Part shown: piece after piece, positions 13,601-56,500 of the stretch
Numbering within the stretch: the stretch's first letter is position 1
Layout of the letters: every line of letters starts with the position of its first letter
From: Paracyclopina nana
Lineage: Eukaryota; Arthropoda; Copepoda; Cyclopoida; Cyclopettidae
Direction: 5' to 3'
DNA: 64,000 bases
NCBI GenBank assembly: GCA_019096065.1
Contig: JAGUCH010000001.1
Location: 16,306,001-16,370,000, forward strand
Position numbers and translations under genes: made by a program
The notes under the pieces: generated by a model
Told to the model about the DNA's origin: nothing
The model's input: the letters and a program-made list of their open reading frames with translations, nothing else
Database searches by the model: none

Positions 13601-15993
13601 AGTAGAGCGCGCTCTGCAGGCGCAGTCTGGTTGTACATAGCTCCTACAAAGCTACTAATGAGCACTGCACTCAATCAAGGCTCCATTGAGGGCTCTATGA
13701 GAAAAAAGAGGGTCTTTATATTCTCAGGGTTTTGCTTACTTCAAGATTGTCCTCGCTGCATGATGCCTCCAATCAAAAAACCTATAATGAGATTTCAAAC
13801 TTGAACAGGGAATGCAACAATAAAAAATCGGCTTATTCTATTAACTCATCCCATTATCGGAATTTTTTAAGCTCTTGCTCTAAGTAGAAATTCTCGTCAG
13901 CTGGCATGAACTAGGTAAAGTGAAAAAAAAGGACAGCAAAATACTTTGCTTTTAAGTGTGAATCAAAGCTCAATATGCTAATAGAGAATTATCAACTTTG
14001 CTTGAATAGAGAACAGAAGGTTGTTTCTTATGAAAATTGAACATTGCCAGCATTCCGTAGTATATACTTAGTCGCCTGCTAACGGATGCATTTAGTATGT
14101 GAGGCATAAATGCTTCCCATCCATTTGAGACGAGAAAGTTTGCAAGTTTTGGAAACAACACAAGAGGTCTTTGCTGCTTTTGTTCTGCAACTACCAATAA
14201 TTGCAGGTTTTACCGCAGTAAACGTTGTGCTACTAGTGAGAAAGTGAGTTTGCTCAAGCCACGAATGGCTTTAGATGCATTTACCCGATTTACCAGTGCT
14301 TTCCAGCAATTGTACCCACTGGTAAATGAGCCGCAGTCTTTTATGTAGATAATACTGGTTTTCACCCACATCTGCTCTCTTCTTCTTAATTAGAGCAAAG
14401 GTAAAACTGCGTACAACAAGGCCATATTTCATAATATCCAAGATAATAATGAGCAGGATCAGGCTTTGTCTTCAAGGTCACAAAAGTTTGCTTACAGCAT
14501 TTTTAAAATAGCTAGTTATGCTACACATTTGAACTTTAAGCTTAGAGATAGAAGATTTTTTCTGTATTTTCTTACATGTGACAAAAAAATATTGCAGCAG
14601 AGGACATAGCCCTTTTTTGTGCACAATTCCTCATCTGTTCTTGCCTTGGGGGGGAAAATTATATGTCACTAAACTTCCACGTCTTTATTGTACTTCTGTA
14701 TTGTACTATAGCTTACGCTGTGGAAAATGAGCCACTTTATCTTCTTCAACGTTGAAACAAAAGCCACAGTACAGTATATGTTATACCGTGTGTAATTGAT
14801 GTACTAGCATTTCCGGAATTAGAAAGCTCCTGTGGAAAGGACCTTGGCCAATAGATATGCGCACCTATGTGCAAGTACGTTATCCTTATCGAGCTCAATC
14901 AAGTTTTGTTGATTTCCTCGTGAAAGTAAACAGGAAACTTCAGAAGCAGGAGAGAGCAAGGCGTTCTGTATTTGTCTCTCACAAAATAATCCACTTTATA
15001 GATCTAGCTTGCGAACTGTTGTGTAAAGGGAAAGAAAAACGATAAATGAGCGTTCCTCAAAAGATGACGTCCATTCAGAGCCAAATTCGCTTAATGCACT
15101 TTTGAGATTAGTTCAAGAGCAATTTATCGATGGAAAGTAGGAAAAGCAAGCATGTACAGCGTGTCTCGTGAAAAGCGCAAGAAACTACTATAACTGCAAG
15201 ATGGCGCCTCTTACAATTTCTGAAATGGGTAGCTCCAGCTAAGATGCGTCAAACCAGTTTTCAGTTAGCGAGTGCGCCTAAAGTAGCTTAGCATAACATA
15301 AACATAACAGACCGCGGAGGAATTATGACGCATGATTGCTGATCAAATGTTTAGCCTTGAATGCTTGCTGTAGTGCGCACTCGCTTACTTGTAAGCAGCA
15401 ATACAAACTTGACTTTTATAACATTCAATTGAGAAAAGATAAATTTGTGCCACGACCTAAGTAAAAGAAAAGAAGACACAGAGGGGCCAAATTGCCACGA
15501 AAAAGAGCCCTCAAGCAAGAAAAATGAGTCCAAGAGACTCCATTTGCCGATCACAATTTCGAGCAAATCAGTGACAATATTCAGCCTTTCAGCCAGTGAG
15601 GTGAATGTCGCCTGCCATTCTCGGCCTCCCAACAGGCCGGAGGCTGCATCAGATGTTTTCATAATTTGGTAAGCTCTTTTTATTGTAGTAGTAAAAAGTT
15701 TTTGCAAGTGTCTCCTTTTTTTTACTAAATTGATTGATCCACCTAAAAAGGCAAGGGTTCAAAGACTCCGCCACGTCAATGGAAGGAACTATCTTGATGA
15801 TTTCTACACAGTTGCACTGATGAGATAAAGTTACGAGTGCAATGGGATGATGAATATGCCCTCATTCCTGACTACTCAATTTTTTGCAGTTAAAGCCAAT
15901 GAATTTGTATCATTTTCATGAATAATAATGATAAAAAACAATAAAACTTTTAGTTCATGACAAATAAATCATTATGACTAGAACAATAAAAAA
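10646..15993. other. Intergenic DNA between the MITE and the transposase gene
   Basis: About 5.3 kb without a recognisable gene. The frames present (for example near 11773-12117 and 12700-12972) show no domain, no splice context and no codon pattern. Short GGCCT-rich palindromic stretches occur near 12865-12940. The last few hundred bases before 15994 are probably the transposase gene's 3' flank, but no minus-strand AATAAA is visible there. Confidence 0.45.
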
Positions 15994-18492
15994 TTAAGCA
16001 TCACGAATTTTGCGATTTTTTTCAAATAGGCCACCATTTCGCAGGATGCATTGTCTGAACCGCTCTTTTAAGCCTTGAAATGCATTTCTGATCTCTTCAG
16101 GAGTGATGGCATTGTAGACAGCAATTATTTTGGCTTCAAGCTCCTCAAGCGTAGTTGGCATTGGGTGAACATAAACATGACCTGTAACAAAAAGAAATAT
16201 TGAATTATGAAAGATGAAAGATGAGAGTAATTAATGTAATCTTTCTTGAAAGAACAATTTTTAAGCAAAGCTTTCACTGTATTGGATTTTTTTGCACTCT
16301 CATCATAAGTGTGTGTGTAAAGCATTAAAAAGGGGCCAAATCTTTCCCAATTTATGCCTGGCTCTTACTTTTAATCCTGTTGTTAAGCCAAATGTCGAGA
16401 ACTGTTAAGTCGGGTGATCTCGCTGGATAATCTACTCCATGGAAGCCATTTTCGGGGTCATTGAAGCCCAATCCAATAAGGCGATCTCCGAACTGACTTC
16501 TAAGGTACCGTTTGACTCCTCTGCAATAGAAAGTAAAACAAATGAGCTTTAATTAGGGATACAATATTCCACCAGATGGCAATACAGGGACAGGTGGCTT
16601 GCCAAGGTTTAAAAAGCATTGATTTACATCTGTATCCAAATCTGCACCCAACTTTCAAACCAAAAAAATCAATTTAAACTTACTCTTCCCGATGGCATGG
16701 CGCACCATCTTGTTGAAAATGAAGTCTTTCGCGAATTTCTTCTGGTACAGCATCTCGTAGAAAAGGCATGAGGTGATGGCTCAAAATTCTGTAAAATAGC
16801 AAGTTTGGGACACAAGAAAAACAGCTAGATCTCTCCCCACAATAACTAATTCAAGCTGATGTTACACAGTAAAATTGCCTGAATTCAAACAATTGATTTG
16901 AGAGAGGTGGCAGATCATGCTTTATTGTAGCTGTTACAAATACAACTACTTACCGTTTATACCGTTGACCATTCAAGCTGCCACGGTAAATCTTGATTGG
17001 GATTTTTATCCCACTACCAATAACACCGATCCAAACATGTAGCTTTGTTTGATCCTCTGGCTGAACATGATAAAACTCATCAGGCCGGCCCTCTCCCTGA
17101 GCAGAATACCTCCTATCCGTTTGTGAATTAACATTGCCTGAAATATGAAAAAAAAAACATAGAAGTCGCCCATAAAAGCTTTTGGAAATTGAAAAAGTAT
17201 TCACTAGTTCCACTCGAATTTCAATACCTAAGGTACCTTGAACAGCTACCAGCGCATACCGTTTCTCATGACTCAATCAGTATTATAATACTATTTTTTA
17301 CCTCCAAGGGTGAAGGCACATTCATCGCTCATAATAATGTGGTCCAAAAAGTGCTCATCAGCAGCAATATTCATTTCCATCCATTCACAAAATATTCGTC
17401 GAGCTTGAGGATCACGGAGAAAATTGTGTTTGTGCTCTTTTCCTTTGAAGAGAGTAATTATTTCATAATTGGCATATCCCTTCAAAGTTTCTATTAGCCT
17501 TACCTTTCTTATATGCATTAAATTCCAAATCTTCCCGAGTGATGCGATTGAATGATGAGCGTGAGATACCTGAATAAAAAGAAATCTTATAGGGTGTTCA
17601 CCCATGCCTTGTTTCCTTAAATCTTACAACAGCCTTAAACGAAATTAAACGAAAGTTTTCGTACTTCTGATTAATCAAAACTCGAAACTCATAAGACTAA
17701 AAGAGGTAGGAAAAGTTGTATACTTGAGGCTATGAAAAGTGCGTAAAAATGATCAGTTCTGAATAAGGAGGCTTGAGTAAAACGCAATTTAATGGTAGGT
17801 GAACACAGCATTAGTTCTAGTGAAAAATGGCCATTAGTCCCAACATTTTAGTTTCAAGCTTTCAAGCCAAGCTAAAGCTCTTTCCATCACTAATCAATTC
17901 ATTATTACTTAATGTGTTAAAAGGTGCTCCATTTTACCAAAATCATTCCGTCTTGCACTTGAGCCTTTCATAGCAGCTGGATTGGCATGCTCAGCAAGAA
18001 GAGCATCTCTCACTTCCGCAATTTTTTCAGGAGTCCGTACAGTTCGCCGACGTTCCACAAACTTATTCTGGAAATGAAGTAAACAAGCTGAAAAGCAGTT
18101 TGATTAATTTGTAATTTGATGCATTTCTACCTGATTTTGCACTGTTCCTTTTTCATCGAATTTGTTGTAGTTGCGTGTAAAGGTTGAAATACTTGGCACA
18201 TGACCTTCTCCATATTCCTGGATCCAACGTTGTTGGGCCTGAGTAGCTCCAAAATCCCTGGTCCAAAATACCATATTTTTTCTATGATATAAGAGTTGTT
18301 GGCTGTGGTACATTTTCATAGAATAAGACTCTATCTAAAATCTTACCTTTCTTCATCGGTGTACTGGTACCGTGTGGGATTTTGAGCCCTTACCGCAGGG
18401 AAATTAGGCTGCACAGTTGGCACACCTCTGTTGACAGCAACTCGAGATTTCCGCATGACACGACCGTGAGCGATGGGAGCAAATCTTTCCAT
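15994..18492 (-). CDS. Tc1/mariner-superfamily (IS630-type, DDE_3) transposase gene with eight introns, frame intact
   Basis: Exons: 18492-18347, 18257-18131, 18067-17938, 17569-17504, 17442-17302, 17137-16954, 16788-16684, 16520-16369, 16181-15994. They join by GT-AG into 412 codons plus a stop with no frameshift. An N-terminal helix-turn-helix region (about residues 40-95, STFTRNYNKFDEKGTV) resembles the DUF4817-type domain of insect transposases. The catalytic domain shows IIMSDE (D196), FQQDGAPCH (D292) and ARSPDLTVLD (D337), a DD-44-D arrangement. The WI/G-rich strand and NG-x-Y motif of the family are also present. Family role: cut-and-paste transposition in the nucleus. Oddity: such transposases are usually intronless, so this is either an intron-bearing transposon gene or a domesticated host gene. 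No terminal inverted repeats were seen around it. A plus-strand repeat array starts about 0.5 kb upstream, head-to-head. Confidence 0.85.
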
Positions 18493-19011
18493 TTTCAAAA
18501 CATAAAAATTGGCTTCAAAACAAGATAAAACCAAAGAAAAGTGAGCATAATAAACCCAAGCCACATATTACAATAGCAGCAGGGAGTCTTACCATTTTGC
18601 ACATGAATGGAGGCTACTTGGATATCTTGGCATGGCGCATTTCCTAATGCTTTCTTTTGATAATTTATTGAAATTGAATAGAAATGTGGCAAAATAAGAT
18701 GATCAAACAAATAGCAACATTTTTAGCAACCATTTCGTATTTCATGTTACATCTCATCCAACTTCTAAAGCACCATATACCATAAAAATGAATTTTAGGT
18801 TTGCTATTTCACTTCTGCAAATTAACTATTTATCAAAAAATGAGCCGTCATTTTTGCCCTAATTTTGACAGCTCAAGCAAATCAAGAAGCCGGTAAAGGT
18901 TTTGTTTGTATCTTCTAATTGTTCCGATACGCTCAATTTTTGTGTCAGCTATATATTTGAGAAAAGTTGCTGCTGCTCTAGAGAAGAGACGCTGTTTCAA
19001 CTTTATTAGAA
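18493..19011. promoter_or_regulatory. Head-to-head spacer between the transposase gene and the exon-like array
   Basis: About 0.5 kb separates the transposase start codon (minus) from the first clear array unit (plus), so it should hold the transposase 5' region and possibly a divergent promoter. No core promoter motif is convincing. The short GCTCAAG word found in the array already appears near 18872. Confidence 0.3.
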
Positions 19012-20159
19012 TCAAACGACAACCTTTCCAGACACCTGTCCATATCCAGACTTGTTCAAGCAGACCAAAGTGCCATTTTCGTCTTTATTAGGTAATGCAA
19101 GTGAAGCCCAGAAAAGAGTCCATTTTTTTAATAATAAGTTTCTCTTCATCAGGTCTCTTGACAGACTCAAATGATGACTTTTCAAGACACCTGTCCATAT
19201 CCAGACTTGTTCAAGCAGCATTTTCGTCTTTATTAGGTAATGCAAGTGAAGCTCAAGAAAGAGTCCGTTTTTTTAATAAGTTTCTCTTCAGGTCTCTTGA
19301 CAGACTCAAATGATGACTTTTCAAGACACCTGTCCATATCCAGACTTGTTCAAGCAGCATTTTCGTCTTTATTAGGTAATGCAAGTGAAGCTCAAGAAAG
19401 AGTCCGTTTTTTTAATAAGTTTCTCTTCAGGTCTCTTGACAGACTCAAATGATGACTTTTCAAGACACCTGTCCATATCCAGACTTGTTCAAGAAGACTG
19501 AAGCGGCATTTTCGTCTTTATTAGGTGAGTTGAGGCTCAATGACTAAGCAAGAATCACATTTTTTCATTATTCAATTTCAGGTCTCTTGACAGAATCAAA
19601 TGATGACTTTTCAAGACACCTGTCCATATCCAGACTTATTCAAGCAGATTGAAGCAGCATTTTTGCCTTTATTAGGTAATGCAAGTGAAGCTCAAGAAAG
19701 AGTCCATTTTTTTAAAAAAGTTTCTCTTCAGGTCTCTTGACAGAATCAATAGAAGAGTCTCCATCTCCAGACACCTGTCTTTCTTTCCTACCCTGGATTG
19801 TTCAAGGAGACCAAAGTGGCATTTTCGTCTTTATTAGGTAATGCAAGTGAACTTTAGCCAAGAGTCCGTTTTTTAACGAAGTTTTCTTTCAGGTCTCTTG
19901 ACAGAATCAATAGAAGAGTCTCCATCTCCAGACACCTGTCTTTCTTTCCTACCCTGGATTGTTCAAGGAGACCAAAGTGGCATTTTTGTCTTTATTTGGT
20001 AATGCTAGTGAACTTTAGCCAAGAGTCCGTTTTTTAACGAAGTTTTCTTTCAGGTCTCTTGACAGAATCAATAGAAGAGTCTCCATCTCCAGACACCTGT
20101 CTTTCTTTCCTACCCTGGATTGTTCAAAGAGACCAAAGTGCAACTTTCGTCTTTATTAG
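19012..20159 (+). repeat. Tandem array of exon-intron-like units (at least eight copies)
   Basis: Exon-like blocks lie at (start unclear)-19091, 19153-19236, 19292-19375, 19431-19524, 19582-19675, 19732-19837, 19893-19998 and 20054-20159. Their lengths are 84, 84, 94, 94, 106, 106 and 106 bp after the first. Each later block starts GTCTCTTGACAGA after a pyrimidine-rich CAG and ends TTTATTAG or TTTATTTG before GTAATG or GTGAGT. Spacers are about 55-61 bp and mostly similar to each other. The spacer after 19524 differs in sequence yet keeps GTGAGT and a pyrimidine-rich CAG. Joined in order, the 84 bp blocks add 28 codons without shifting frame; the 94 and 106 bp blocks shift it, and the third full block ends in a stop (19480s). 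Blocks could be exons of a repeat protein or of a noncoding RNA, or a minisatellite that mimics splicing signals. Confidence 0.85.
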
Positions 20160-20940
20160 GTAATGCAAGTGAACCTTAGCCAAGTGTCCGGTTTTGAACT
20201 TTTTGTGTTTTAGGCCACACTTTAGCTCCAGGATGCTCAAGAAGACAAGTACAGTGCATCCGAGGATGCTCAAAATGGTTGATACCTTTCCCTGTGTTCT
20301 CCCACAGCATACAAATTCAGGCCATGACAATTTGCCGAGACAAGTTCAATACTCATTCATGTAGAACTAACAAAGACTAACAAACTACCTAGGCATTTTT
20401 GTAGGTCTCTAACACACAGTTGCTCTCAATGGCCTTGTAAGACCAAAGACTTAGTCCAGAGAAGCGCTGCCTTTCACCATGTGTTAAGGAATTACAGTGA
20501 TCGTATCTGGAAGCTTCTGTGAGCAGAAACTAACCCATAGAAAGTTAAATGAAAATGAAATAATCCTTGGACCCATTGTCTCAATTAAGCCAATTTTGAC
20601 TTTATTTTTGCGTTTCAGGCCGGACTTCAGCTCCAGGATGGTCAAGAAGACATTGAACAGGATCAGGAAATTCATCTAAATCAATGGACTTTGCAATGAC
20701 TACTTATAATCATGATGCTTTGTTCTGTTTTATCCTTTTTGAAGAGATAGTTTAGCTCCGAGATAGTATAGCTCCTGACAATAAAATTGTTGTGTTTTGG
20801 TAGGGTTAACATCACCTAAGATACAGGACCAAAAGTGGATTTGACCCATGTGGATCCAACCCTTGACTTTGTTTTGTTTTTCAGGTTGTAATTAGGCTCC
20901 AGGATGTTCAAGAAGACAAGTGCTAAATGCTTTCTTAAAA
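20160..20940 (+). repeat. Degenerate downstream units of the array
   Basis: Three more pyrimidine-tract plus AG boundaries occur at 20213, 20618 and 20884. Each is followed within about 12 bases by the shared core CTCCAGGATG then TCAAGAAGACA. They are spaced 405 and 266 bp apart, and the intervening sequence is not conserved. The core relates to the TCAAGxAGAC end region of the main units, so these look like older or truncated copies. Confidence 0.6.
20780..20785 (+). terminator. AATAAA in a duplicated 3'-end-like module (copy 1)
   Basis: A plus-strand polyadenylation hexamer inside a module that recurs around 20963: TTTAGCT, then AATAAAAT, then a TTG-rich stretch with GGTAGG. This suits a transcript end for the upstream array. 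Confidence 0.4.
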
Positions 20941-20962
20941 AGTTAGTTTAGCTGCTGTTTGA

Positions 20963-20968
20963 AATAAA
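20963..20968 (+). terminator. AATAAA in a duplicated 3'-end-like module (copy 2)
   Basis: Second copy of the module described at 20780, about 183 bp downstream. It follows the degenerate unit that starts at 20885. Confidence 0.4.
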
Positions 20969-21359
20969 ATAGCTGTGATTGGGTAGGTTAAGGTACAGCA
21001 AGACAATTGATGCTGCTCAAGGCAACAAGTTGAGGCTGCTCACCAACTGATCACTGAAAGTCTAAGGTTACTTGAAATAGCAAGACAAGCTTGACCTACT
21101 AAATTGATCCACCATAACCAATGTCAACTACCCTTCACTGGAGAAACTACATAAGAGAACGGGCTCCTCCTACTCGAGCACTAAAAAATTGGCGCTAAAA
21201 TCAAAATTTGGACTTCCCGCTTTTTCATTGAAGCAAACAGCATTAGCGCCACCGCACAAATGACGAAAGAACTAAAATAAGTTTAGTGAATTAATTTGCA
21301 TACTTCTGTCTAGAATTGTCATAGTGGATGGCCCTGACTTAAAATATAAATTGTGGTGG

Positions 21360-21640
21360 CTGTAGGTAAAGTCTGCAAATTGAGGCTGATCAAGACCACA
21401 AATTGAAGCTGTTATGGTTTGAGGTTGCTCAAGAATGCAAATTGTGGCCGCTCAAGACTAACAAAGGAAGCTACTGCTAATTGAGGTCATTAAAGACTAC
21501 ACATTGAGGCTGTTCTAGCCTATGCTATGGTTTGAAGCTGCTAAAGGCTACGATGTCACAGGTCACTGATAACTAATTGAGGCCGCTCAAGACTGAATAA
21601 GAGGCCATTCAAGACTGCTCATTGAGGCTGTTTATTTCAT
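21360..21640 (+). repeat. Degenerate short tandem repeats of TTGAGGCTG(C)TCAAGACT
   Basis: Roughly ten imperfect copies of a word close to AATTGAGGCTGCTCAAGACT follow one another at about 20-35 bp spacing. They vary as GAAGCTG, GAGGTTG and GTGGCCG. The GCTCAAGA core is shared with the array upstream. There is no open frame. Confidence 0.6.
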
Positions 21641-23906
21641 GAATAAAGAATTTATTGCTCTTTATAATGCTTTTTCTGTAGAGGCAGCATTGTTCTGCCA
21701 TCAGCTTTTAGATAGTTTATTTTGCACACAAACTTGCACTGACAAGATGAGCTGAGCAAAGATTGCCCACTTAGCTAGCGTGCGTAAAGGAACTATTTCT
21801 TCTAACCCAATCAGCTGCCTGGGTGGCTTGCTAAGCTGACTGCTTGCGCTTACGAGTCCGCTAAATTGTGCGTCATTAGCTACAACTGATTTTAATGCCT
21901 GAAAAAGATCAAGTCGTTCTACCTCAACGCCCCTGTTTTCCTATTTACTTGCGCTTTTGACGAGACAAGCTGTAGAAAAATATTGGCTCTAAGAGATGCT
22001 GGTATTATTGGCCTCAGTGATGGCCAATATATCTATCAATTTCAGTGAAAATGGCTTTGCACAGATCAATGAAATCTTCTACCCACGAGGCCAATTTTAA
22101 CTACTACTTTTCCGCTTAACAAAAAATGGTGCGCAACTTTCTTGGCTCAGGTGTGCAAGATTTGCGCACCAAGAGACCATTTTAAGTACTCTGAAAAATG
22201 AATATCTTGGCTATTTTAGGTATGACTTCCTTCCTTTCAATCATGAATATAAAAGTACTATGATGCCACCAACAAATCTACCTGTGTGAGAATGCTACGA
22301 TTGAAAGTTTCCACCGGCGATGCAGCAGACTTCAGTAGTGTGTTCGTTTCCTATTAATGAGACTGCATCCCTGGCTTTAGTGCTTTGATCGAAAAACTCA
22401 TTAAAAGAACTAAATCAATTTCCCTCCTCATTCATACAGATTGAACGTAATATTCAAAAAATTAACATTGTTTAGTTGAGCTCTTTTTTCAAGGGCAGAC
22501 TCAAAGAAGTTGTGTATGTAAACTGATTGCAACACGTTTCACGACGAGCTCTCCAAGTTCCGAAAATGAGAGTATTTTTTCTTCCAAGTTGTTATGGAAA
22601 CTTTTGCAGCAAAAAATAAAAATGCTCCTTGGAAGCAAAAGCCCTTGCTCATTGTAGCTCGCATCATTAGCGGCAACAAAAGGATACATATATTTTATAT
22701 TTTATAATACCCACACGAAATGACAAATGCCCCAAGGCCTCGTCTTGTCACCGCACTGTACCAACAAGGAAACTTGTGTGAGCCAGCAGGATGAATTTTC
22801 CTCAGCTCGGAAATGAATGGCAAAGAAGCTAACACGACGACGAGAGTCTAAGCCATTTATCATCCCTCTTGAGAAATTCCTTCCAAAAAGTCCCTTGGGA
22901 TTTGAAATCAAGCCAGCTAAGGATTTAGATGGCGGTTGAAATTACCTTGCGACACTTCAGCTCTGAGATGAAGAGCAATTGATATGTCGCTCCTTTGTAG
23001 CAGAAAAAGAAAGCAAGTACGCGGTACAGTGAAGTGACCATTCACTCTTCGCATTTTCGCTGAATGGCGATTGAATAACAATGGCGATTCAATTGTAAGT
23101 ATTCAGGCCTTGAGCTTTCTCTCTGCTGAAAATAAATCTACATTTGGCACGCGTTCCAATCCCTATATATGCTTTAAGCCAGTGAACGATTTCATCCTGC
23201 TGGATTTCCCTTTTGAGCAGCTGTTTTCCCCAGAATGTTGCCCTTTCAAGCCTAGCGCCTATAACAAAAGAGCTGACAGCAATAAATCATCTTTTCAAAG
23301 TTGTTGAGCTTTTTCCGATTCATGGACTAAAAATTCAGGCTTGAAAATACTTACGATTATTTTCATTCATGGATCAGCTGCTTTTTGGCCCCTCTCTGCT
23401 TGAAGGCACTAGTGAAATGGCAGAAAATCGTAATCTGACGAGTTTTCACTAACACAGCGAGTATGAAGAGAAGGGCAGCCTTTCCTTCTAAAGTAAAGTT
23501 AGCACAACGAGGAAGGTTACATTTTCTCCGTCAATCTGTCAAGATTAGAAAGTGCTTTAAAAAATGAGTTAATGGAAAAAGTTGAGCTCATCAACAAGAC
23601 TTGTTTGGAGAAAGTTGATCACACACACATCATCTTGAAAAAGTTAGCTGATGTTGTTCAAAAGCAGGTCAAAAAAGTGGAACGAAGGGGCTCTTGGCTG
23701 CCCTCGAAGCCACGTGAGGAAAATACCAAATTTTCTCGAGTGCTGTCTTTGTAATGGTGATGATTGGCAATCTTGGACCTCCTCCCTCTTCTTCTCCCTT
23801 TTTCACGAAAATAAAGAGTCAATCATCAGCATTGAATATGAATATCATTTACGCTATATCACAGTTTATTTCTCACAGCCAGGAATAAAACAACAATGGA
23901 TGATTA
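21641..23906. other. Intergenic DNA downstream of the RhoGEF gene
   Basis: No gene is recognised. An imperfect hairpin with arms ATGGTGCGCA and TGCGCACCA lies near 22124-22170. The part closest to 23906 is the RhoGEF 3' flank with its polyadenylation signal. Confidence 0.45.
23865..23870 (-). terminator. Polyadenylation signal of the RhoGEF gene
   Basis: AATAAA on the minus strand, 36 nt past the RhoGEF stop codon at 23907. It is the only hexamer this close to the stop and lies in the right orientation, implying a short 3' UTR. Confidence 0.5.
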
Positions 23907-50531: not shown

Positions 50532-53500
50532 TTAAGCACTATCCTCACTCTTAGTGTCTTGCAATTTGTCCACAACATTGTCAAGTTTTCCGAGGCCTCG
50601 TCGCCGACCAGACCTGGTCAGTCTGATTGGCGCTCCCGAGGCGTCAGTTCCGTCAGTGATGGAGCCTTCAGCTCCGCTCGAGTTGCCTCCGTCGTGCTCC
50701 TGAAGCTCTTGCTCCTTCTGGAGTCGAGCTCGCTTCTTTTCACGCAAAAGCACTCGCTCCTCACTCGTCAGTCCGCCTTTGGTTGAGCCCTCGTTGTCAG
50801 TAGCCTCATCCGCGGTGCTCGTCTTGTCATTTTCAGACTCTTTCTCGTTATTGCCATTCTGGTGCTGGTCCTCCTTTGGCATCACCGCAGCTCCAGACGC
50901 AGCAGCGGCATCTTGGGTCTTCTTCTCAACACTCTCGTGATTCTTGGAAGCTTGGGGATCAACTACAGCAGCAGCGGCGGCTGCAGCCTTTTTCTTCTCT
51001 TCTAGAGCAGCAGCCACAGTCCCTGGTTTGGCCTTGACTCCAGCACTCGATCCAGAGCTGGCTTTGGATGACACTCCGTTGTGAGAGGTGCTGGGAAAGC
51101 CAAGGCTGGAGTACATTGCAGCCAACGAGGGATCCAGGCTGGCCAAAATCTTGGGATCCAAATTGGCCAAGTCTTTGGGATCCATGGTGGCCAAACTGGC
51201 CATTGTTTTTGGATCAAGACCAAACATCTTTGGATCGAGACCTGCTGAGGCCAACAGCTTCGGATCAAAAGCAGAGGCCATCGAAGTGGGTCCTGGCTTG
51301 GTATCAACCAGTCTTGGATCGATGCCCATGCTGGCCAGGATCTTGGGGTCCATTCCAGCAAGCATTTTGGGATCAAGGCCAAGCATCTTGGGGTCGAGCA
51401 ACATGCTCTCCGGAGCCTTTTTCTCTGATGAAGATGATGCTCCTCCCTTTGTAGCTTCCTTCACAAACTTTGGATCAATTCCATACGCTGCCAGAGTTTT
51501 GGCATCCATGCCAGCAAACATTTTGGGATCCAGGCCAAACATCTTGGGATCGACGCCACCAGCACCAAACATTTTAGGATCAAGTCCATAGGCTGCTGCA
51601 GTCTTGGGATCCAGACCAAGCAACTTGGGATCAAGGCCAGCCAATAGTTTGGGATCTATCCCACCATACAATTTTGACAAATCAGATGATGTCGAGGGAC
51701 CTGTAGATGTTGTCGTGCTTGATCCTGAGGCCGATGTCGCCACTCGGGTTCCCAAAGCTGAGAAAGTTGGCGCAACAGTTGATGTAATCTTGGCCATGGT
51801 CTTGGTCGATGGAGGCTTTGCTGGAGTTTGCTTTTGCTCCAAAAGGCTGGCCACTATTTTGGGGTCAAGTCCAAGACTCTGGAGAGCCTTTGAGTCGAGA
51901 CCCATCAGCATTTTGGGATCCAACCCAAGAAGCCTCGGGTCTAGTCCGGGTCCAAAGCCAGTTGCACCAGGCATATTGGATCCTTTTGAAGATTTCGGAT
52001 CGAACATCTTGGGATCAAAGCCAAATAATCTTGGGTCGAATCCACCAAACAAAGTCTTGGGATCCATGCCTGCCAACATTTTAGGGTCCATCATGGCGCT
52101 CAACAGCTTAGGATCCATACCAGCAAACAGTTTTGGATCAAGCCCAGCCATGGAGGTAGCAGCGGTTGTTGACGTGCTCACTGATGTCGATGCCATAGAA
52201 ATCTTGTCAAGACCCGGAATCATTTTTGGGTCAATTCCAGCAGCCTGCAGAAGTTTGGGGTCCATGCCAGACAAGACTTTAGGGTCAAGTCCACCAAAAC
52301 CCATCATAGTGCGAGGATCAAGTCCAAGCATTTTGGGGTCCATGGAAGCCAAAGACTTAGGATCCAGACCAGCAGCTTTCAGCAGATTGGGGTCCATACC
52401 AGCCAACATCTTGGGGTCGAGACCAAGAGCAGCAGCAGCACTACTCAATGCTGATGAAGGCGTGGAGGTTCGTGGAGCCATTGAAGATGGCACTGAAGTT
52501 CTGGGCGATCTACGGTCATCACTCTTCACGCTGGCCCTTGATGGTGGTCTTGGAGAAGCTCTGGGGGAATTAGAGTTGCCAGCTTTGCTCGTGGAGGGCG
52601 AGGAAGTAGTCGATGTTTTGGACTTGGTACCCAAAAACATTTCCATGCCAGGCATACCAGCCATCATGGCAGGATTCATGCCATAGCCATACATTGCAGC
52701 AAGCTGGTTACTGGGATCCATGGCGGCCATGGCTGCCATCAGGCTAGCATTGGGGTTCTTGGGGTCAAGCCCAAGAGCAGCCAAAGTCATGGGGTCCATT
52801 TTCTTGGGATCAAGGCCAATTGCAGCCAGCATTGAGGCATCAAATTTGCGAGGATCAAGACCCATCGCCTTGGCCATAGCTTCCATGCTTTGATTGGCAC
52901 TATCATTTGAGGCCTTTGAGGTCGGTGTTGCTTTTCCACTAGGTGAAGAAGTGGGCGGAGGCTTCTTGTCCGGCGCCAAGAGACCCATGGCTTGCAAGGA
53001 TTTGGTGTCGAGTCCCATTTGCTGCAAGAACTTGGGATCCAGGCCCATGCTCTGAAGAGTCTTGGGGTCCATGCCCATTGCCGCTAGCATTTTGGAGTCG
53101 AATCCACTATTGGAGGCTGATGTTGTTGCCGGTGCCTTTGGCTGCTCAAAACCCATGGCTTGAAGCATCTTGGCATCGAGGCCCATTGCAGCAAGCGTTT
53201 TTGAGTCCATGCCAAGACTTTGAAGCATCTTCGGGTCCATGCCAAGCCCAGCAAACATCTTGGGATCCATGCCAAGAGCTTGAAGGCTCTTTGCATCCAA
53301 GCCCATGGATTGCAGCATTTTCGGGTCCAACCCTCCCATCATGGCGTTCTTGGACGCATCCAACATTTTGGGGTCCAATCCCATGGCAGCAAGGCTTTTA
53401 GCGTCAATACCCATTGCTTGAAGAGTTTTGGCATCCATGCCCATAGCCGCCATCATCATTGGGTCCATTTTCATGGGATTTTTGGGGTCACCAAATCCAA

Positions 53501-56500
53501 GCATAGCAGCTGTCACTGGATCGAGCTTTTTGGGATCCAATCCATAGAGAGCGGCTAGAGACATTGGATTTTTGGGATCAAGGCTGGCCAAGGCAGACAT
53601 GGGGTTCTTGGGATCCAAGCCAGCCATTGTGGTGAGACCAGAGAGGCTGTATGATGGGCCGATGCCACCAGAGGTGCTCTTTTTACTCGCTGGTTCATCC
53701 ATTGGAGGTCGTCCAGGGCCTTTCCTCTTCTGGGCAGATCCAAGAGCCCCAAGATCAACACCTGTTTTCAGAGTCTCTTTGTTCTTGACCAACTCGGCCC
53801 ATTTGGGGTCCACATCAAACATGGGATTTTCGATGAGCCACTGAGCCAAATACTTCAATTTCGGCCCCTGAGTTCCAGACAATTTCTTGCCTGTGAACCT
53901 GTTGAGAACGGTCACGTGCTCGTCACCAGACAAATTAGACATCCACTCCATGAGGTTGCCAACAGCTTTGGGAGACTTTCCAGCTGACGTTGACGTAGCC
54001 GTAGCATTCGAAGTGGAGGGGGTGACTGGCCTGTCAGGTACCACGCCCATTTGAGCCTCAAGCCACTTTTGAACCTTCGTTTCAGATGGGGAATCCGGCC
54101 TTCCCAACAAATCTTGAAGCTTATTCAGGTCAGGAATCCTTGAGACCGATGCCAAGGCTTCTTTGCTCTTCAGCAAGCTTTGACCTGGCGTGGCTTCTTC
54201 CTTGTCAAGGTTCACTCCCTTGGCAGCGCCAAGACCAAACATGATATCATCCAGCCTCTTCTTTTTCTTGGTCTTGTCCTCAGTCGTGCCCTCGGCGAGC
54301 TTTCTTTTTTGACCCAGCTTGTCTAATGCCGACTCCAACTTGGAGCCGGTTTTCTGCGATGCTTTCTTCTGCAAATCAGCCAAAAACGAGCTAGTCTCAG
54401 CAGCTTCTCCATTGACGGCTGTTATTTCCACTCCACTCAGCCCGCGATTTTTGGTCAATCTGAAAAACAAAAGTACCTCTGTCGAGTTATGTGCATTTAA
54501 ACAGGGCAGCAAATAAATAGCAATCACGGCACGACGTCAAGAGGACAGGACGACGAAAAAGTACCCAAAAACTTCGTCCATGTATGTAGTCTTTGGTCCT
54601 TTTGGTATGACAGAGATTGTCAATCCATTAATGGTTCGTTCATGAAACTGATGTTGTTGCTGCTGTTGGTGTAGCTGAGGCTGAGGACCAAAAAGGTCCT
54701 CGTAAGTGTTGACTCTAGAAGTGCTGTCTGTTAAAAAGCTCTCGATGGAAGGGTAAGTGTCATGCACGAGATCATGAAAAGGATCCCTAGATTTATAAGA
54801 AGAACAATAATAGGGAGATAGCGAGGGAAAATTGATTTAAGAGGGGTAGTAAAAAGCTGGTAACAACCGCTGCTACGACAATGCTTCAAAACTATTAGCA
54901 GAAAATATGTGGTATAGGAAAAAAGTGTAGTTGAATTGGAATAATTTTGCAATTTTTGCATACCTGGCTAAAGGATCATCCTCATCCAATTTGGATGCTC
55001 CACCGAGGCCAGAGGTGAGCAATTGATGAATTTTGCTCTCAGTCGACTTGAGCTTATCGGAGGATGATTCGCTCATGGGAGTTGAAGTCTCCCTCAAGTT
55101 GGAATCAGGGCTCATTGGATCGAAGGGAGTGTTGTCAGTGTCTTGCAGGTGGGCCAAGATTTCGCCCAAGCTGTAGTCAGCCTTCTCGGGGAATTTGCCA
55201 TCCTGGACGCATTTCACAACTTGCTCAACTCGGATGGCCAATACTTGATCCTTGGGCCATTTGAAGGTGGCAGCATATGTTTGTGCCACGAGGTCGTTCA
55301 TCATGGACATGTCATAGAGAAGGCCACCTTTTGCCATCTGCTCCATCTGTTGCATGGTGATTTGTGGCGGAGCAATAGTGACGCTGGCTCTTCTGGGTTT
55401 TTTGGCTTTTCCGGCCTTTTCTTTGGGCTTCTCCTTGTCTTCATCAGCATCCTCCTTCTCCTTGTCATTTTCTTTCGGCTTCCCGTTTTCTTCGAGAGGT
55501 TTATCGCCAGCTTTGTCATCAGATGATGATGGTCCAGCCTCTTCATCTGCAGGTGCTTCTTTTGATGCCTTGGCTTTCTCCCTCAATTCCTCGTACTCTT
55601 TGGCCATCTTTTTGTCAAGCAGAGGTTCATTCATTAGTTGCCTTTTGAGGAGGTCTTTGAAGCATAGCTCCTCGCTCATAATGAAATAGTCCATCCTTGC
55701 CATGCCAGACCTAGCAACTCCATGGAGCAAATCTTTATCGTGCTTTCCTGAGATCCACCACTCGGGCAAGTCGCAGGCATCTTCGCACAAGAGCAGCTTC
55801 TCATCGAGCTTAGCATCAGTCAAAATGACGTCACGGATTGTCTTCAATAAGTCGATCCGGGCGAAAATCTTCTTCGCTTTGACCTCATCTATGGCATCGA
55901 TGTGAAGCTGGCAAGCCTCTTCATCTTCGCTCAGACTCTGGCCCAAAGCCTTTTTGCAGGCAGCTGTGAAGGCAGTGTAATACTCACTCAAGGTATCGTC
56001 ATACTTTTTGTCCAGCCTAGCCAACTGCTTGAACCGATCCCATTGAATCTTCTTGTCTTTGGTCTCAATGCCATAGGCCATGATGGCTCGGAAGAAATCG
56101 TTCTCCTCCTTTTTGCTCAGCTTCTGTTTCGAGTCCATTTTCTGCTGCTCGCGCTCCTTGATGACCTGCTCAATTCTTTCTCGTCGCTCATTTCTGCGAT
56201 CTTGAGCAGCCAATCTGGCTTCTTCCCGCTTGTTTTCTCGCTGATATGAAGCCATCAATCGCCGGAGCCGGCCATTCAACTCGGAGGAAGATGGGAAAGG
56301 TTTGAATTGACCGTTGGATGTAGATTCATCCTTATTGGGCTTGATGCTGGAGGCTCTCTCAGAGGGAGTCTTGGACCCAGACAGCATCGAGTCTTCGTCC
56401 TCGTCCAGCTTGGAATCATCATCCATGTCCATGTTATTTTTGTTCAGAGGCTTAGCAGCGATCTCATCTTCGTCAGGAGGGCCGCAAATTTTCAAGAAGC

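Follow-up and report, generated by a model that had tools for sequence, protein, structure and literature searches.

Tandem exon-intron-like units divergent from a mariner-like transposase gene in a DNA transposon of the copepod Paracyclopina nana

Transposons of the Tc1/mariner type usually carry a transposase only, with a catalytic spacing of approximately 34 residues and longer spacings in the wider group. Revolver, a transposon-like element of plants, reportedly has a spliced transcript but no transposase, and it is not known to contain tandemly amplified exon-intron units. DNA transposons with tandem repeats in their interior have been described before, as in Pokey of Daphnia (piggyBac superfamily; PMC3849761) and Galileo of Drosophila (P superfamily; PMC3688188). 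Here, we analyzed a DNA stretch of 64,000 nucleotides (the window; C1:16306001-16370000) from the copepod Paracyclopina nana, the genome of which comprises 91.95 Mb in 10 contigs. The window harbors a DNA transposon of 6820 bp with defined ends. An array of two sets of tandem exon-like units, types A and B, runs divergently from its mariner-like transposase gene, displays splice signals, is followed by AATAAA motifs and shows no coding signal in the A exons. Judging from these features, we consider it probable that the array forms a second transcription unit of the transposon, one that is spliced and noncoding and was amplified unit by unit.

The element resembles Tc1/mariner transposons in its TA...TA ends, short inverted repeats and the weak DDE_3 and helix-turn-helix matches of its transposase, and differs from them in the second, divergent unit of tandem exons and introns, the several introns of the transposase gene and a putative catalytic spacing of 49 residues (in the C2 copy). 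It shares with Pokey the repeats upstream of the transposase (a likeness of position only) and the deletion derivatives devoid of transposase, whereas Pokey has a TTAA target, a piggyBac transposase and repeats of ~200 bp from the ribosomal DNA spacer, and the available part of its description does not mention exon-intron units (PMC3849761). Galileo likewise has internal tandem repeats, but these lie inside long inverted repeats and contain THAP binding sites (PMC3688188). Among the best matches in the open-licence literature, no transposon with a second gene of amplified exon-intron units was described.

Transposon ends, copies and transposase

The locus is not free-standing but lies inside a DNA transposon whose ends are defined and of which the genome contains further copies. 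The units of the initial annotation were real; the whole in which they lie, which it missed, is a transposon copy at 15155..21974. The two ends of this copy are the inverted repeats at 15155..15181 (plus strand) and 21948..21974 (minus strand), and both subterminal regions could be aligned with those of other copies, the 3' one with seven of them. Without gaps, 25 of the 27 bases of the inverted repeats were alike (the best pair in 20 shuffles reached 21), and the gapped score of 26 was less clear against 200 shuffles (mean 12.5, maximum 28). The stronger argument for the window ends is the alignment of the subterminal regions, found at both ends between copies whose inverted repeats differ.

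The short copies have 28-bp inverted repeats with TA at either end. A genome scan for their termini with up to three mismatches gave 14 matches versus none for the reversed control. The inverted repeats matched in 26/28 bases in copy C2b and 22/26 in C1b, as counted by eye. Eight copies are complete end to end: that of the window, C1b (6122 bp), C2b (10214 bp), C8a (3129 bp), C5b (2970 bp), C4 (3162 bp), C3a (2261 bp) and C8b (3144 bp). All eight start and end with TA, a putative target duplication; all eight contain the array, and three of them also the transposase. Overall, array DNA matched at least 41 places, and the family counts at least approximately 16 loci in the 92-Mb genome, one segmental duplicate and fragments included. 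The fetched copies were homologous along long stretches, several with sharp ends.

Some copies were duplicated or broken. At C8:6384315-6390840 (L013 5316-8459 and L014 1-2840), two copies lie 3.4 kb apart and are 99.97% identical over 3081 bp; they are a recent tandem duplication of most of an element, the second copy lacking the first bases. At C7:2.638 Mb (L028 4298-4989), an element 5' end with its inverted repeat was found; it lies ~15 kb away from the array on C7 (L015), the edge of which it matched at 95% over 172 bp. The two are probably a single copy that was broken apart.

The transposase gene of the window lies on the minus strand at 16021..18492, in predicted coding stretches 18337-18492, 18125-18286, 17924-18076, 17288-17623, 16950-17141, 16355-16522 and 16021-16164, in agreement with the head-to-head transposase of the initial annotation. 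These stretches gave a helix-turn-helix match to DUF4817, under the curated cut-off, and matched the loci at C1:11.60, C2:3.10 and C3:9.00 Mb, with an amino acid identity of 39-78% depending on the stretch. In all four loci with a transposase match, that of the window included, the array units are divergent from the transposase. The protein of the C2 copy matched DUF4817 at E=0.0038 and DDE_3 at E=0.02, neither of them reaching the curated Pfam cut-off, and its single match in PDB was a hypothetical bacterial protein (E=0.26). Its putative catalytic acids are residues 204, 300 and 350, an assignment that is a reading; the 49 residues between the last two depart from the DD34D/E spacing. In the C3:9.00 Mb copy, transposase matches do not extend past residue 320 of a query of 413 residues, and only a few diverged units of the array are left. 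Directly beyond the last transposase match of this incomplete copy lies a GC-rich minisatellite of 19 bp in 26.8 copies (L026 2949-3465).

Tandem units and their splice signals

In the window, the initially annotated tandem units were confirmed at 19012-20213 of the plus strand. Seven complete A blocks of 84, 84, 94, 94, 106, 106 and 106 bp (19153..19236, 19292..19375, 19431..19524, 19582..19675, 19732..19837, 19893..19998 and 20054..20159, the last being the final unit with an aligned donor) follow a 5'-truncated first block at 19012..19091, the end of the predicted exon 1. The spacers of 54-61 bp, such as A intron 1 at 19092..19152 (GT...CAG), each begin with GT and end with a pyrimidine-rich stretch and AG, and the array is far above chance (Tandem Repeats Finder scores of 870 and 912). 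Next to the A units comes the first B-type exon, which starts at 20214 with the acceptor ttttag and a match to the B profile (20214..20260, its end not defined). Two B-type terminal exons on the same strand, 20619..20785 and 20885..20968, contain AATAAA at 20780 and 20963, each motif following a B-type block. The sequence is best read with the blocks as exons and the spacers as introns.

Two arguments originally offered for this reading did not hold. The spacer at 19525..19581, which has a GTGAGT donor, had been called unrelated to the others, and its presence amid nearly identical blocks had been taken as a trace of selection on splicing. This was wrong, since the spacer is a diverged homologue of its neighbors: with the splice ends trimmed, only 4, 6 and 48 of 2000 shuffles reached its scores with three neighbors, and with the ends kept, the numbers for six neighbors were 1, 0, 0, 0, 0 and 0 of 500. 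The lengths 84, 94 and 106 had been seen as steps of growth, which was not borne out; in other copies A exons most often have 102 nucleotides (nt; 15 of the 25 that were measured beyond the window), and relative to this form the 106-nt exon has four additional bases, while the 84- and 94-nt exons are devoid of some. What stood was the exon-intron reading itself, now on other grounds: a search of the genome with the unit showed that related loci retain the same anatomy and that donors were lost mainly beyond the poly(A) signal.

Across the loci, type A combines an exon of mostly 102 nt with an intron of 55-61 nt (36 A-A pairs), and type B an exon of 82-84 nt, 83 in most loci, with an intron of 58-59 nt (63 B-B pairs); pairs outside 30-120 bases were left out of the intron count. 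The segmental copy of C8b, C8c, was omitted from all counts of donors, acceptors, lengths, codons and AATAAA. The number of units varies widely between the loci, up to ~36 B units in tandem with a period of 142 in C2. The introns of type A do not resemble those of type B (one pair tried; 471 of 2000 shuffles). The exons of both types share a purine-rich TGTTCAAGAAGAC-like core, with modest support in four pairs (20, 39, 291 and 129 of 1000 shuffles). Purine-rich sequence resembles known splicing enhancers.

Two core matches were noted outside the known loci. At C3:9087359 (L033 1860-1939), a lone B-type fragment of ~80 bp lies just past an open frame and may belong to the 3' untranslated region of a host gene. 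The other, at C8:492582, falls in an open frame, looks like a chance hit and was discarded. One exact core pattern gave no matches in viral contigs.

Donors of the GT or GC type were present in 46/48 A and 68/79 B units, and seven of the nine non-GT A donors were GC, a change from GT that splicing tolerates. At the fixed column, the acceptor AG occurred in 39/42 A and 70/94 B starts, and in 16 of the remaining 24 B starts it was one base off. Among the 127 units of the AATAAA test, from which matches short of the donor column were excluded, GT/GC donors were found in 106 of the 107 units that precede the first AATAAA versus 8 of the 20 that follow it (Fisher 7e-11; 7e-8 when the two long arrays are excluded, kinship being ignored). 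Between loci, with the near-identical C8a/C5b pair skipped, introns diverged more than exons (0.36 vs. 0.22 in B, 0.21 vs. 0.145 in A), and the last three intron bases of B showed 0.00 divergence vs. 0.30 for the preceding 22, clipped alignments missing from the comparison.

These donor data bear on the explanation of the array as a passive satellite, i.e., an old spliced noncoding (or once coding) transposon exon that was amplified by unequal exchange and is now functionless, its splice motifs persisting merely since the units are young copies of one another. The near identity of units within a locus (97% matches over 26.8 copies in the scanned part of the C2 array), the very variable copy number, the kinship of the loci, the unremarkable conservation of A donors and the lack of structure and of a coding signal all suit such a satellite. 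It leaves unaccounted for the donors kept upstream of the poly(A) signal and mostly gone downstream, the preponderance of GC among non-GT A donors, the array in 8/8 complete copies and the array units that accompany transposases just 39-78% identical to that of the window. We regard a passive satellite as rather unlikely.

Two further places in the array region were noted. At 19003-19030, the sequence ahead of the first block ends in CTTTATTAG, which resembles the end of an A exon, and runs straight into the central part of an A exon (AATCAAA...); the sequence absent between the two would begin with GT and end with GACAG, so it could be an intron lost via a cryptic acceptor or a plain deletion. 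A stretch at 20404, common to the window and C5a (L009 near 3800), lies between two B exons and has an A-exon-like start (TAG GTCTCTAACACACAG).

Coding potential, RNA structure and possible roles of the array

In the A exons of five loci with full-length exons (C5b being dropped from the codon analysis), codon positions varied alike in all three frames (0.053-0.061), and synonymous changes made up 7/26, 10/38 and 9/28 of single-base changes versus the 0.24-0.26 expected. The B exons have at most one open frame; all 12 of C1b are closed in every frame, and in C2b 12/35 are closed and 23/35 are open in one. A repetitive protein encoded via in-phase exons would draw on the 102-nt A exons, most of which are open in two frames, and on C4, where a stop-free run of 219 codons spans eight joined exons (shuffle maximum of 160 in 300). 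The C4 run, the exception in a set devoid of codon constraint and phase, weighs little because the units repeat and one open unit opens all. With codon positions changing equally, a synonymous share near the random value, exons of 94, 103 and 106 nt that break the phase and B exons mostly of 83 nt, a protein-coding array is disfavored and, in our estimate, highly improbable.

Rfam gave no matches at the gathering threshold in the window. Apart from the C4 run, several observations weigh against a spliced noncoding unit. No RNA structure was detected: the folding of six stretches gave z values of -0.88 to 0.83, and the exon alignment contained a double change in just 1 of 10 pairs in the test for conserved structure. 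Three patterns searched in the genome turned up no intronless junction of the kind expected of spliced retrocopies: the A-A pattern had 10 matches, all of them intron-exon joins, and the B-B and A-B patterns had none. The divergence of A donor positions +1/+2 (0.156) was not below the exon average (0.145), C1c and C3b being the differing loci, and B donor positions +3 to +6 varied more than the intron middle (0.40 vs. 0.36). In part, the downstream units that lack a donor represent a single inherited type, and the first AATAAA is a crude boundary that in C5b and C8b precedes B units retaining donors. As units and loci share descent, the counts and Fisher values overstate the evidence. Finally, the putative promoter region is alike in most short copies and differs in the window, where TATATA at 18950..18955 (plus strand), a weak candidate TATA box of the array unit, was read from the sequence and is not supported by the alignment of other copies.

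If the spliced noncoding unit exists, a promoter near 18.95 kb would start an RNA that runs through the A units and then the B units to an exon with AATAAA. Transcription would be by RNA polymerase II, the short introns would be removed, and the product would be a polyadenylated noncoding RNA. Unequal exchange would add and remove whole blocks of exon plus intron. Since an acceptor and a donor come with every unit, the transcript would stay processable at any copy number and the arrays would be free to grow, which may explain the large differences in unit number.

Alternatively, the repeats might act as DNA sites that bind the transposase or a host factor, or enhance transposase transcription, with incidental splice motifs. 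The array is indeed situated upstream of the transposase, as are the Pokey repeats (PMC3849761), tandem repeats can carry transposase sites, as in Galileo (PMC3688188), and the TGTTCAAGAAGAC-like core, modestly supported, is common to the A and B exons. But the array is one-sided and lies outside the inverted repeats, and paired donors and acceptors, narrow intron lengths and AATAAA after the array would all be left unexplained, making DNA sites improbable.

As to what a spliced noncoding unit might do, our first choice, though a doubtful one and the least certain part of the explanation, is that the array acts in cis, by analogy of position with the repeats of Pokey (PMC3849761); it would keep the transposase, and the promoter region shared with it, accessible for transcription. 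Retention of the array in copies without transposase fits a use in cis, against which stands that these copies may descend from one founder. We did not take up a role of the introns as a shield against HUSH-like silencing, given that introns also occur in the transposase gene, that HUSH was shown in human cells and that minimal splice signals reportedly did not counteract it (PMC8770142).

In the surroundings of the element, open frames of the window match a CHD6-9-type chromodomain helicase, a RhoGEF domain and a seven-transmembrane receptor. Adjoining the helicase frames, a frame of 1334 amino acids on the minus strand (50532-54536) contains many short repeats like GLDPKMLA.

Tentatively, and going by sequence comparison, P. 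nana may host a mariner-like lineage with a dedicated second gene, its spliced noncoding RNA built from up to ~36 amplified exon-intron modules, which would be retained for its own spread alongside transposases of only about half identity. A second, apparently noncoding gene beside the transposase in long and short copies would raise the question of what RNA or splicing does for a transposon. Arrays with splice sites in each unit would offer a natural series in which to test the number of short introns that the spliceosome of the host can handle, and also the effects of introns on the silencing of mobile DNA, for comparison with that by HUSH in human cells (PMC8770142).
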